Assembly: GCA_022732315.1 (NCBI GenBank)
Contig: JAIJUV010000076.1
Coordinates: 1 to 11,180, forward strand
Source of the DNA: Prevotella sp.
Lineage (GTDB): Bacteria; Bacteroidota; Bacteroidia; Bacteroidales; Bacteroidaceae
Length of the DNA: 11,180 nt
Reading direction: 5' to 3'
Made by a program: the position numbers and the translations under genes. Positions 1 through 11,180 of the stretch are shown piece by piece (the stretch's first letter is position 1; each line of letters begins with the position of its first letter). A model generated the notes under the pieces. The model saw nothing but the letters and a program-made list of their open reading frames with translations, had not been told where the DNA came from and did not search any database.

Positions 1-68
1 CCACCAGGAATCGAACCGGGGACACAAGGATTTTCAGTCCTTTGCTCTACCAACTGAGCTATGGCACC
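1..68 (-). tRNA. tRNA-Phe (anticodon GAA), 3' end cut off by the window edge
   Basis: Read on the minus strand from 68 downward, the sequence folds as a tRNA. The acceptor 5' strand is GGTGCCA. The D arm is GCTC...GAGC with the AGTTGGTA loop. The anticodon stem is AAGGA/TCCTT around the loop CTGAAAA, giving anticodon GAA and so Phe. The variable loop is GTGTC and the T loop is TTCGATT. Counting gives position 68 at the window edge, so the last part of the acceptor stem and the discriminator base are missing. The visible 3' bases TGG pair with the start of the acceptor stem. One T-stem pair (C51 with U63) is mismatched. The gene has its own consensus promoter directly upstream, so it is probably transcribed separately from the thiL operon on the same strand. 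Confidence 0.93.
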
Positions 69-184: not shown

Positions 185-245
185 AATCTTTCGAAGGATT
201 CTTTGAAAGGCTTTGCTTGCGCTAAGCTAATCTTTCAAAGGATTC
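185..245. repeat. 17-bp direct repeat straddling the thiL stop codon
   Basis: AATCTTTCGAAGGATTC (185-201) and AATCTTTCAAAGGATTC (229-245) differ at one position and lie 44 bp apart. The second copy encodes the last residues and stop codon of thiL (Asn-Pro-Leu-Lys-Asp-stop). The first lies just downstream in the 3' UTR. Each unit is also an imperfect palindrome. This could be a small tandem duplication of the gene end. Confidence 0.6.
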
Positions 246-1336
246 CATCCCTGTGCCTTGAGCTCGAATTCCTGGCCATCGCGGGTGATGAGGAACTTGC
301 CTAGGCTTTCCTTGGTGATGTAACCAATCTGCTTCACTCCTTCCATCGCCTCGATTTTCTCGTGGTCGCCGATAGGAACCGTGAAGAGAAGTTCGTAATC
401 TTCGCCGCCATTCATCGCACAGGTGGTGAGGTTCATGTTGAATTCCTCTGCCTGTACGGCTGTCTGGTAGTCGATAGGAATATTCTTCTCATATACACGG
501 CAACCGCAATGGCTCTGCTCGCAGATGTGCATCAGTTCGCTGCTGAGGCCGTCGCTGATATCCATCATGGCTGTTGGGCGGATACCGGCTTCTCTCAACT
601 GAGCCATGATGTCGCCACGTGCTTCTGGCTGGAGCTGACGCTGCAACAGATATTCCTTTCCGGCAAAGTCGGGCTGGAAATTGCGCATCTCCTGCAAGTC
701 CTTGTTGAGAGCGGCAAGCTTCTGGCTATCATTATTTGCCTTAGCCTCTGCCATCTTCTTGCGGATGTCTTCCACCTGTCCGTAATACACAGCCTTTTCG
801 CGTTCCAGGAGCTGCAGGCCCATGTAGGCTCCGCCCAGATCGCCCGATACGCAGATGAGGTCGGTTTCCTTGGCTCCGCTGCGATACACGATATCTTCCT
901 TGGCAGCCTCACCGATGCAGGTGATGCTGATGGCAAGACCGGTGAGCGAAGAAGTGGTGTCGCCACCTACGATGTCAACTCCCCATTTATCGCATGCCAT
1001 TCGCAAACCTTTATAGAAGTCGTCAAGGTCTTCCACCTTGAAGCGCTTGCTCAGGGCAATGCTTACCACCATCTGGCGTGGAGTGCCGTTCATGGCGAAG
1101 ATGTCGCTGATATTGACCATGGCACTCTTGTAACCCAAGTGCTGCATGTCGATATAGGTAAGGTCGAAGTGTACACCTTCCATGAGCATGTCGGTGGTCA
1201 TGAGCACTTCCTTGTCTGGATAGTGCATCACCGCACAGTCGTCGCCCACACCATAGACGGTAGAGGCATTTTTGTTTTCATATCCCTTGGTGAGATGGTC
1301 GATGAGACCGAATTCACCTAACTTAGCTATATCCAA
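227..1336 (-). CDS. thiL: Thiamine-monophosphate kinase ThiL
   Basis: The protein has 369 residues and phosphorylates thiamine monophosphate with ATP to thiamine diphosphate, the last step of cofactor synthesis, in the cytoplasm. The family signature is complete. GEFGLIDHL is at 7-15 and the Mg/ATP loop GVGDDCAVM at 29-37. TTDMLMEGVHF is at 47-57, VGGDTTSS at 123-130, SGDLGG at 164-169, MMDISDGLSSEL at 257-268 and NGGEDYELLF at 309-318. The start is a TTG codon. An in-frame TAA lies only two codons upstream, and the GEFGLI block near the N terminus fits this start. A Lys/Glu-rich, probably helical segment at about 187-219 seems to be an insertion; E. coli ThiL has 325 residues. It is the last gene of the sppA-lpxK-punA-thiL unit, 40 bp after punA. 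Confidence 0.95.
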   Translation of the reverse strand: MDIAKLGEFGLIDHLTKGYENKNASTVYGVGDDCAVMHYPDKEVLMTTDMLMEGVHFDLTYIDMQHLGYKSAMVNISDIFAMNGTPRQMVVSIALSKRFKVEDLDDFYKGLRMACDKWGVDIVGGDTTSSLTGLAISITCIGEAAKEDIVYRSGAKETDLICVSGDLGGAYMGLQLLEREKAVYYGQVEDIRKKMAEAKANNDSQKLAALNKDLQEMRNFQPDFAGKEYLLQRQLQPEARGDIMAQLREAGIRPTAMMDISDGLSSELMHICEQSHCGCRVYEKNIPIDYQTAVQAEEFNMNLTTCAMNGGEDYELLFTVPIGDHEKIEAMEGVKQIGYITKESLGKFLITRDGQEFELKAQGWNPLKD

Positions 1337-9333: not shown

Positions 9334-9549
9334 ATGAATAATATTGATTGGAAAAAAGCTTTGGTCTTTCTGATAGTTATTGGAGGACTGATTTATATAA
9401 CAAAGGCTGAGTTGGGAATGACTAATACAAACTCATTCTTAACTACGCTAGGTGTGCTGTTGATTCTATTTATCGGCGACAACTTTGCACAGAAAATAGA
9501 TGATGACAGAAAACGTCGTAAATTGAATAAGAATGGAAAAGCTGATTAA
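9334..9549 (+). CDS. Small two-helix membrane protein, function unknown
   Basis: The 71-residue product has two hydrophobic stretches, about 9-23 and 35-48, likely membrane helices joined by a short loop (KAELGMTNTN). The tail from about 54 is strongly basic (DDRKRRKLNKNGK) and should face the cytoplasm, which would put both ends inside. I recognise no family. It has a good promoter, starts with an ATG in an AT-rich leader, and its last 17 bp overlap the start of the kinase gene (the sequence ATGGAAAAGCTGATTAA holds both the start and the stop). The two are therefore probably translated together. A membrane anchor or transporter accessory for the kinase is possible, but this rests only on the gene arrangement. 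Confidence 0.7.
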   Translation: MNNIDWKKALVFLIVIGGLIYITKAELGMTNTNSFLTTLGVLLILFIGDNFAQKIDDDRKRRKLNKNGKAD

Positions 9550-11077
9550 TCTTTATAAGCAATGGGCTGGTGAAGAACCTGTCGATGTCATCAGATTGGC
9601 AGGACAGGGCAGCAACCGCCAGTATTTCCGCATCATCAAGCAGGATGGTGATACCGTGATTGGTGTCATCGGAACCAGTCGTGATGAGGATCATGCGTTC
9701 ATTTATCTGGCTAATCATTTCACGCTTCGACAGTTGCCGGTGCCTAAGGTGTTGGCTGTGAGCGAGGATCAGCTCTGCTATATCCAGACCGATTTGGGCG
9801 GAACTTCCCTCTTTGATGCCATCAAAGGTGGACGGGAAGCTGGTGGCAGGTATAACCAGAAGGAGAAGGAACTCCTGAAGAAAACCATTCGTGAGTTGCC
9901 TAACATCCAATTGCGTGGCGCTCGTGGCCTGGAGTGGGAGAACTGTTATCCGCAGCCGGAGTTCGATGTGGATAGTGTGCTCTTCGATCTCAACTACTTC
10001 AAGTACTGTTTTCTGAAGCCTACCGATCTGGATTTCCACGAACTGAAACTGGAGGCAAACTTCCGTCTGTTTGCGAAGGACCTGACATCCGAAAAGATGG
10101 ACTGCTTCCTCTATCGCGATTTCCAGGCACGCAATGTGATGCTCGATGCTGAAGGCAATCCGTTCTTCATCGATTTCCAGGGAGGCAGAAAGGGACCGTT
10201 CTACTACGACCTGGCTTCTTTCCTCTGGCAGGCTTCGGCTAAGTATCCGTTCAAGTTGCGCCGTGAACTGGTTTGGGAGTACTATCAGTCGTTGAAAAAC
10301 TATACTGAAGTGCCATCCATCCGCCATTTCGTGAATCGTTTGAGCCTGTTTGTGCTCTTCCGTACCCTGCAGGTGTTGGGTGCCTACGGATTCCGTGGCT
10401 ATTTTGAGCGCAAGAAGCATTTCCTGGAAAGTATTCCGGCTGCCATTCAGAACCTGCGCGATTTGCTGAAGATGGGCGAGAAGGTGTTCCCATATCCTTA
10501 TATGATGGATATGCTGCGCCGACTCACCGAGTTGCCGCAGTTCAAGCGTATTGAGAGCGTGGCTGTTACCCGTGCAGATGGTTACAAGATTACGGATAAC
10601 AACATCTACCGGGCTCATCCGCAGGATGGTCCTGCCACTTATTCCAAGTATGACGGCAAGGGCCCGCTGGTGGTGCGAGTGTTCAGCTTCTCCTTCAAGA
10701 AGGGAATTCCGGAGGATCCTTCAGGAAATGGAGGCGGTTATGTGTTTGATTGCAGAAGCACCCATAATCCTGGAAGATATGAGCCTTATAAGAAGTTGAC
10801 CGGTTTGGATGAACCTGTCATCCGATTCCTGGAGGATGATGGAGAGATACTGCAGTTCCTGGAACATGTCTATGCGTTGGCTGATCATCACGTAAACCGA
10901 TATATCCAGCGCGGATTCACCTCGCTGATGTTCTGTTTCGGTTGCACCGGCGGTCAGCATCGCAGTGTCTATTCAGCCCAGCATCTGGCAGAGCACATTC
11001 ACGAAAAGTTTGGCGTGGAGGTGCGAATTTGCCACCGTGAGCAAGAGATTGAGCAGGTTTTGCCTGCAAAACAATAA
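9533..11077 (+). CDS. AmgK-type sugar kinase fused to a RapZ C-terminal domain
   Basis: The protein has 514 residues. The N-terminal part (about 1-330) is an aminoglycoside-phosphotransferase-fold kinase like the anomeric MurNAc/GlcNAc kinase AmgK. It has the nucleotide loop LAGQGSNRQYFRI (22-34), catalytic loop YRDFQARNVML (194-204, Asp196 and Asn201) and metal-binding FIDFQGG (212-218, Asp214). After a linker (about 330-377), residues about 378-505 match the C-terminal domain of E. coli RapZ: SFSFKKGIP (385-393), YVFDCRSTHNPG (403-414), TGLDEPV (423-429) and GCTGGQHRSVY (470-480). The P-loop domain of RapZ is absent; the kinase takes its place. The basic end of RapZ is replaced by EIEQVLPAKQ. 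In E. coli that RapZ domain binds glucosamine 6-phosphate, so here it may sense an amino-sugar phosphate and control the kinase. The gene is coupled to the small membrane protein upstream and precedes a probable nucleotidyltransferase. It is predicted to be cytosolic. Sugar specificity is inferred, not seen. Confidence 0.88.
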   Translation: MEKLINLYKQWAGEEPVDVIRLAGQGSNRQYFRIIKQDGDTVIGVIGTSRDEDHAFIYLANHFTLRQLPVPKVLAVSEDQLCYIQTDLGGTSLFDAIKGGREAGGRYNQKEKELLKKTIRELPNIQLRGARGLEWENCYPQPEFDVDSVLFDLNYFKYCFLKPTDLDFHELKLEANFRLFAKDLTSEKMDCFLYRDFQARNVMLDAEGNPFFIDFQGGRKGPFYYDLASFLWQASAKYPFKLRRELVWEYYQSLKNYTEVPSIRHFVNRLSLFVLFRTLQVLGAYGFRGYFERKKHFLESIPAAIQNLRDLLKMGEKVFPYPYMMDMLRRLTELPQFKRIESVAVTRADGYKITDNNIYRAHPQDGPATYSKYDGKGPLVVRVFSFSFKKGIPEDPSGNGGGYVFDCRSTHNPGRYEPYKKLTGLDEPVIRFLEDDGEILQFLEHVYALADHHVNRYIQRGFTSLMFCFGCTGGQHRSVYSAQHLAEHIHEKFGVEVRICHREQEIEQVLPAKQ

Positions 11078-11153: not shown

Positions 11154-11180
11154 ATGATGCAAGCAATGATATTCGCAGCA
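11154..11180 (+). CDS. Start of a probable sugar-1-phosphate nucleotidyltransferase (MurU/RfbA-like), partial
   Basis: Only nine codons are visible, reading MMQAMIFAA, before the window ends. The AMIFAA segment is the typical first strand of NTP-transferase enzymes and normally runs into the nucleotide-binding GxGTRL loop, which lies outside. Two adjacent ATG codons could start it. The second, giving MQAMIFAA, looks more usual. Its position after an AmgK-like kinase suggests a MurU-like enzyme that makes a UDP-amino sugar from the kinase product. The assignment is tentative because so little is seen. Confidence 0.5.

Follow-up and report, generated by a model that had tools for sequence, protein, structure and literature searches.

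We find that an 11,180-nucleotide stretch of Prevotella sp. DNA (GenBank assembly GCA_022732315.1, contig JAIJUV010000076.1, the whole of which is called the window here) encodes an AmgK-like sugar kinase fused in a single reading frame to the C-terminal domain of RapZ (RapZ-C), and that this fusion is general, being confirmed in some other Bacteroidota beyond the window. RapZ has been described as an RNase adaptor and as a sensor of glucosamine 6-phosphate (GlcN6P), and a form that is tied to a salvage kinase, lacks the tail used with small RNAs (sRNAs) and keeps a phosphatase signature intact bears on its original role. The architecture of the gene, its neighbours, the conservation of the protein, the signature and the predicted fold are observations. 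From these we put forward as our lead hypothesis, tentatively and with less than even confidence, that the kinase, the RapZ domain acting as a cysteine phosphatase and a nucleotidyltransferase would together make up one salvage module of the N-acetylmuramate (MurNAc) type. If true, the RapZ domain would be a candidate for the third enzyme of MurNAc salvage in Bacteroidota of the gut and mouth. The sequence signature suggests that the domain may act in recycling as an enzyme and not solely as a sensor, and feedback by GlcN6P is a reading that is possible but not favoured. The features of the gene and its surroundings, by window position, are:

9533 to 11077, plus strand: kinase-RapZ-C fusion gene, 514 amino acids (aa), with an ATG start and no internal stops
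9533 to 10528, plus strand: AmgK-like kinase half, residues 1-332 (Pfam APH at 19-239; the domain border is approximate)
10112 to 10135, plus strand: YRDFQARN, residues 194-201, which we take to be the kinase catalytic loop; R195, D196, F197, R200 and N201 are invariant in 17 fusions
10169 to 10186, plus strand: IDFQGG, residues 213-218, presumably the metal-binding motif; I213, D214, Q216, G217 and G218 are invariant in the 17 fusions
10529 to 10666, plus strand: linker, residues 333-378, with 341-376 at a predicted local distance difference test score (pLDDT) under 50 in the structural model
10670 to 11044, plus strand: RapZ C-terminal domain, PF22740, residues 380-504
10724 to 10738, plus strand: GNGGG insert, residues 398-402, not present in E. 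coli RapZ
10772 to 10774, plus strand: Gly414, the equivalent of E. coli His190
10943 to 10966, plus strand: CTGGQHRS, residues 471-478, the CxxGxxR[ST] signature at a strand-helix junction
11154 to 11180, plus strand: start of a MurU-like nucleotidyltransferase gene (MMQAMIFAA from 11154), cut by the window end

Both Pfam domains lie within the unbroken 514-aa frame (window 9533-11077). APH (PF01636) covers residues 19-239 (4.1e-15, 56.6 bits; cut-off 23.2), and PapZ_C (PF22740) covers residues 380-504 with a score of 111.4 bits (4e-32) against a gathering cut-off of 27, which identifies the second half as a RapZ C-terminal domain. An earlier note on this DNA had claimed an AmgK-like kinase and a RapZ C-terminal domain in a single frame, and this is borne out by the open reading frame (ORF), by Pfam and by the relatives of the protein; the motifs that it quoted (YRDFQARNV, FIDFQGG, SFSFKKGIP, YVFDCR and GCTGGQHRSVY) were all found. 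When the PDB was searched with the fusion protein, the nearest solved structures were E. coli RapZ 5o5s (1.8e-14) and the kinase 3csv (1.8e-8). Compared with Segatella copri loci, the protein is 96% identical to that of L001 and 95% identical to that of L002. The APH-type catalytic residues D196, N201 and D214 are invariant in the 17 fusions, with their roles, like those of the two motifs listed above, assigned by analogy with the APH family. The linker between the halves ranges from 13 to 46 aa across these fusions, that of the window protein being the longest, and its residues 341-376 are predicted by the model to be flexible or disordered.

The fusion differs in its N-terminal half from the RapZ/YvcJ/HpaP family (UPF0042), whose members carry a P-loop NTPase where the fusion has an APH kinase. 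The canonical RapZ model NF003828 gives it 92.8 bits, through the C-terminal part only, against a whole-protein cut-off of 244, and no P-loop family is among the four Pfam matches of the fusion protein. The public names of the fusion are misleading. At L137:6984-8414 and L138:6981-8411 it is annotated as 'RNase adapter RapZ', which describes its C-terminal domain alone, and elsewhere it is called 'RapZ C-terminal domain-containing protein' or 'phosphotransferase'. We found no description of a kinase-RapZ fusion in the parts of the literature searched.

As to the generality of this architecture, 8000 candidates from the protein database were scored, all at E 0.001 or better, and the best 120 all carry both Pfam domains. 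We also searched with PF22740 in 247 genomes drawn from the phylum of S. copri and found the RapZ domain in 27, as a single copy in each. It is fused to the kinase in 22 (S. copri G001 and 21 others), is a separate adjacent gene in 4 and lies apart in 1. A chance joining or frame artefact is rejected, since the best 120 relatives carry both domains and 22 of the 27 domain-bearing genomes have them fused. The figure of 27/247 is a lower bound because the PF22740 search was negative in the control genomes of Bacteroides ihuae and of Bacillus subtilis, the owner of YvcJ (PMC7525490). A full-length Listeria RapZ query matched the identical 27 genomes solely through its C-terminal part (residues 152 on), and therefore no canonical RapZ, with a P-loop NTPase and the C-terminal domain, was seen in the 247 genomes. 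Further, a RapZ-C query gave no match in the 51 kinase-bearing genomes without the domain (0/51), in a search that held no positive genome. Parabacteroides distasonis and Bacteroides finegoldii both have the fusion with the transferase adjoining.

The separate-gene forms (L111, L113, L114 and L115; 4 of 26 loci) keep the same order of kinase, RapZ-C and transferase, and in the genome where the two are apart the RapZ-C gene (L112) is on a different contig from the kinase (at L150). At L114 and L115 the kinase and RapZ-C are parted by several stops or a different frame, so a sequencing error is unlikely there. At L111 and L113 one in-frame stop parts them (gap of 3 or 42 nt) and the DNA is compatible with such an error, but stand-alone 133-aa proteins resembling that of L111 are encoded on other contigs (P0121-P0123). 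In a kinase tree of 43 rows, L111 branches with fused rows at a fork that is unresolved, and L113-L115 belong to a set of 9 rows that also contains fused ones (support 80/97, not starred). Given this grouping, the split forms are more likely, if not firmly, splits of a fused gene than a primitive state. Single RapZ-C genes were seen in other settings as well. Within L112:5801-7836 the RapZ-C gene shares a 4-nt overlap with a gene for a secreted endonuclease I-like protein. On small Streptomyces and Planobispora plasmids (L144:3001-3399 and L147:2447-2989) RapZ-C occurs as a gene by itself, again with the CxxGxxR[ST] loop, and at L147 it begins 17 nt after the end of a NUDIX gene.

The earlier note overlooked a feature of the RapZ domain that is the source of a rival enzyme role. 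CxxGxxR[ST] is the signature of cysteine-dependent phosphatases (PTP/DSP, CX5R). Of 280 distinct RapZ domains, 279 have the strict form and the sole miss is a Desulfosarcina fragment, while it is present in 0 of 443 other ORFs (mechanically called, at least 120 aa, 153,270 residues). The looser Cx5R[ST] turns up 13 times in those 443 ORFs, or 0.011 per 125 aa. The likeness to cysteine-dependent phosphatases extends to the position of the signature between a strand and a helix. In a model of the domain (pLDDT 93) strand 96-103 leads through it into helix 109-125, with the Cys at 103 and the Arg at 109, and in E. coli RapZ an oxyanion is bound at the same loop (PMC5737377). None of the PTP, LMW-PTP or Cdc25/rhodanese folds was among the rows listed by Foldseek or VIA-align for the domain model.

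Published work on the RapZ family is consistent with catalysis. The C247S substitution abolishes E. coli RapZ activity and a catalytic -SH was proposed by the authors, who also described crystal density as a 'chemically transformed product' of GlcN6P (PMC9841335). Both NTPase and phosphatase activities have been reported for YvcJ (PMC7525490), and the Xanthomonas homologue HpaP has been termed an ATPase/phosphatase (PMC6916182). We take HpaP to be a RapZ homologue because its neighbours as listed in PMC6916182 are those of the rapZ neighbourhood of Xanthomonas sacchari (L145), and PMC7073468 implies likewise. The word 'phosphatase' is absent from the main texts of the RapZ structure papers PMC5737377 and PMC9841335, and our literature search found no paper that links RapZ with CX5R. 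Two points narrow the lead of the phosphatase reading over the sensor: the E. coli Cys variants were reported to have lost RNA binding too, and the pocket residue H190 is variable in canonical RapZ. For these reasons we keep the phosphatase lead small. A wider proposal is that RapZ C-terminal domains would together form a family of sugar-phosphate phosphatases that depend on a cysteine and have a phosphofructokinase-like fold. Bacteroidota would keep the enzyme role, as the third member of AmgK/MurU-type salvage, and E. coli RapZ, the sRNA adaptor and GlcN6P sensor, would be a repurposed form. We consider this possible, though less likely than not.

The same pocket can be read as a binding site. 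In the E. coli C-terminal domain (RapZ-CTD) it consists of H190, T248, G249, H252 and R253, with C247 close by, and its ligands are sulfate, malonate and GlcN6P (PMC5737377, PMC9841335, PMC7073468); malonate or sulfate is contacted by His190, His252, Arg253 and the backbone of Thr248 and Gly249 (PMC5737377). We aligned 279 distinct RapZ domains (7 canonical, 2 plasmid-borne and 270 Bacteroidota-type, the last including metagenome proteins), after removal of identical rows and of the Desulfosarcina fragment. Invariant throughout, split forms included, are the equivalents of C247, G249, G250, H252, R253, S254, V255, D182, R184, N188, P189 and H276. Four of the five pocket residues (T248, G249, H252 and R253) are kept in 270/270 Bacteroidota-type rows, whereas H190, which is essential in E. 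coli RapZ (PMC9841335), is Gly in 270/270 of them. It is His in only 5 of the 7 canonical rows, and since it varies in canonical RapZ too, Gly at this position is compatible with GlcN6P binding.

On this evidence the RapZ domain could be a sensor that binds an amino-sugar phosphate without turnover and tunes the kinase up or down, as feedback at the protein level. We regard this as a serious possibility, second only to the phosphatase hypothesis. Regulatory domain-enzyme fusions are generally known to be common. E. coli RapZ-CTD binds, and regulates by, GlcN6P (PMC7073468), and the sensor reading of the earlier note, taken for GlcN6P, finds support in the four retained residues and fails to find it at the fifth. 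The replacement of H190 by Gly in every Bacteroidota-type row, together with the Gly-rich insert, argues the other way, as does a linker of 13-46 aa that is disordered in the model. Moreover, 4 genomes encode RapZ-C as a gene of its own and 1 has it at a distance from the kinase, though action in trans is conceivable. Finally, a sensor does not require an invariant Cys in a phosphatase signature, unless that Cys is structural.

Compared with E. coli RapZ, the fusion has the GNGGG insert and Gly for His190, and it lacks the Arg-rich RNA-binding tail, its own tail reading REQEIEQVLPAKQ where E. coli has RTLEKRKP. Because this tail is absent, it is likely that the RapZ domain is used here without an sRNA, as the earlier note had suggested. 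Its further idea that such a role is ancestral is partly published already, as the GlcN6P site has been described as widely conserved and the RNA-binding tail as confined to Enterobacteriaceae (PMC7073468). Rfam, run on the window and L001 only, returned a single tRNA and no GlmY/GlmZ, and a genome-wide search was not made.

A third role for the domain is that of a relic or scaffold that dimerises the kinase or tethers the transferase, with the phosphate-binding loop serving folding or RNA contact. RapZ-CTD does form dimers in E. coli (PMC5737377, PMC9841335, PMC7073468), but the invariance of the C247, G249, G250, H252, R253, S254, D182, R184, N188 and H276 equivalents in 279 domains goes beyond what a scaffold needs, and we consider this role improbable.

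The partners of the domain bear on the sugar. For the kinase half the best NCBIfam model is AmgK (NF045759), at 64.8 bits well below its cut-off of 550, and AmgK is the best equivalog model for all 5 kinases scanned. The window holds only the start of the MurU-like gene that the earlier note placed next, and the gene is complete in S. copri L001, where a nucleotidyltransferase follows from 7622. A MurU-like transferase lies beside the fusion in many other loci as well. The best NCBIfam model of the L001 transferase is MurU (NF045761; 138.2 bits, below the cut-off of 250), and the HddC (71.9 bits of 300) and AglF models match it weakly. MurU is the best model for 3 of 4 transferases, the fourth (L158) tying with mannose-1-phosphate guanylyltransferase.

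We counted a transferase as adjoining when tblastn placed it within 1.2 kb downstream on the same strand; ORF calling misses shadowed genes, for instance at L113. The survey of co-occurrence that the earlier note had called for shows, besides the 22 fused among 27 domain-bearing genomes, the transferase adjoining in 20 of 26 phylum-draw loci and in both named loci, those of P. distasonis and B. finegoldii. Among 80 Prevotellaceae-type loci (Prevotella and related genera by their titles, from 216 in a species-genome scan) it adjoins in 44, is not next in 34, and in 2 the contig ends too soon. The transferase was looked for in 17 genomes; in 13 of them it is truly non-adjacent, and all 13 encode it elsewhere (E 1.6e-31 or better).

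Of 78 genomes with a kinase match, 51 are without the RapZ domain, 50 of these having a distant kinase only, and in G016 (L149) the kinase is a closer one and a transferase is present, with no RapZ-C detected. In loci from 14 of the 50 distant-kinase genomes (L151-L164), where neither RapZ-C nor AnmK was detected, the order is kinase, transferase, NamZ exo-N-acetylmuramidase and sodium symporter in 14/14; NamZ and the symporter were named by Pfam on L158 only, and the L164 symporter is truncated by the contig end. The sequence context of these RapZ-less kinases and transferases beside NamZ points to MurNAc salvage. Their order resembles a MurNAc scavenging operon, with the symporter as a candidate MurNAc transporter.

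AnmK, which we take to be the maker of MurNAc-6-phosphate, is present in 18 of the 27 genomes that have both the kinase and RapZ-C (weakly in one, G223) versus 0 of the 51 that have the kinase without RapZ-C. An enrichment of AnmK is rejected, as 171 of all 247 genomes have it. Co-occurrence with NamZ is likewise uninformative (26/27 RapZ-C genomes, but 237/247 overall), and so is the MurQ model, which matches strongly (at least 223 bits) in 13 of 27 RapZ-C genomes, 11 of them above its cut-off.

We take MurNAc as the most likely sugar because AmgK and MurU are the best models and NamZ adjoins the RapZ-less relatives. It is also conceivable, if unlikely, that the kinase makes another sugar 1-phosphate, such as that of N-acetylglucosamine (GlcNAc), glucosamine (GlcN), a heptose or a surface-glycan sugar, and that the RapZ domain handles its phosphate, which is compatible with either a phosphatase or a sensor. 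Scores well under the AmgK and MurU cut-offs and the weak HddC and AglF matches would fit such a module, and these genome searches found neither AnmK nor NamZ in S. copri G001. Set against this are the ranking of AmgK first for every kinase scanned and of MurU first or tied for every transferase, the NamZ genes beside the distant kinase relatives, and a MurQ-like match in G001 of 223 bits, which is under the 302-bit cut-off.

The AmgK-MupP-MurU route of Pseudomonas and Caulobacter, with AmgK/MurU in T. forsythia, is among the closest known systems in having an AmgK-like kinase near a MurU-like transferase. It follows a plan of kinase, phosphatase and transferase, and T. forsythia AmgK and MurU expressed in E. 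coli have served as a positive control in MurNAc-probe labelling (PMC13041923); amgK and murU of C. crescentus have consecutive locus tags (PMC13046382). T. forsythia AmgK may itself be a kinase-RapZ fusion, since P. distasonis, of the same family, has the fusion. The difference lies in the third partner, which is a RapZ domain in the fusion rather than a HAD phosphatase, and in scores under the equivalog cut-offs. No HAD family was found in a Pfam scan of the fusion protein, so any resemblance to MupP is functional at most. The HddA-GmhB-HddC route to GDP-heptose has the same logic of anomeric kinase, phosphatase and nucleotidyltransferase, with a kinase and a phosphatase from other families than those of the fusion. 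Only its transferase is distantly related to that of L001, as the HddC score given above indicates.

Under the phosphatase hypothesis the fusion would be the core of an anabolic amino-sugar salvage, most likely of MurNAc. The AmgK-type kinase would phosphorylate C1 of the sugar, and its product would be converted to a UDP-sugar by the MurU-like transferase. The RapZ domain, as a cysteine-dependent sugar-phosphate phosphatase with Cys471 as the putative nucleophile and Arg477 as the phosphate holder, would take the 6-phosphate off MurNAc-6-phosphate or a similar sugar phosphate, acting either ahead of the kinase or after it, and would stand in place of the HAD phosphatase MupP of the Pseudomonas route. 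We infer the substrate, the phosphatase activity and the order of steps from the gene set, the order kept in the split forms, the signature, the RapZ-family literature, the NamZ neighbours and the distribution of AnmK.

Elsewhere in the window, a truncated tRNA gene found by Rfam lies at the window start (1-68, minus strand). A 71-aa ORF with a hydrophobic stretch (9334-9549, plus strand) runs 17 nt into the start of the fusion gene; its counterpart at L001:5802-6017 has no Pfam or NCBIfam matches. A putative ThiL-like gene is found four called genes upstream of the fusion in L129, L130 and L132, and a ThiL-like frame is also present in the window (227-1336, minus strand), 8 kb from the fusion.
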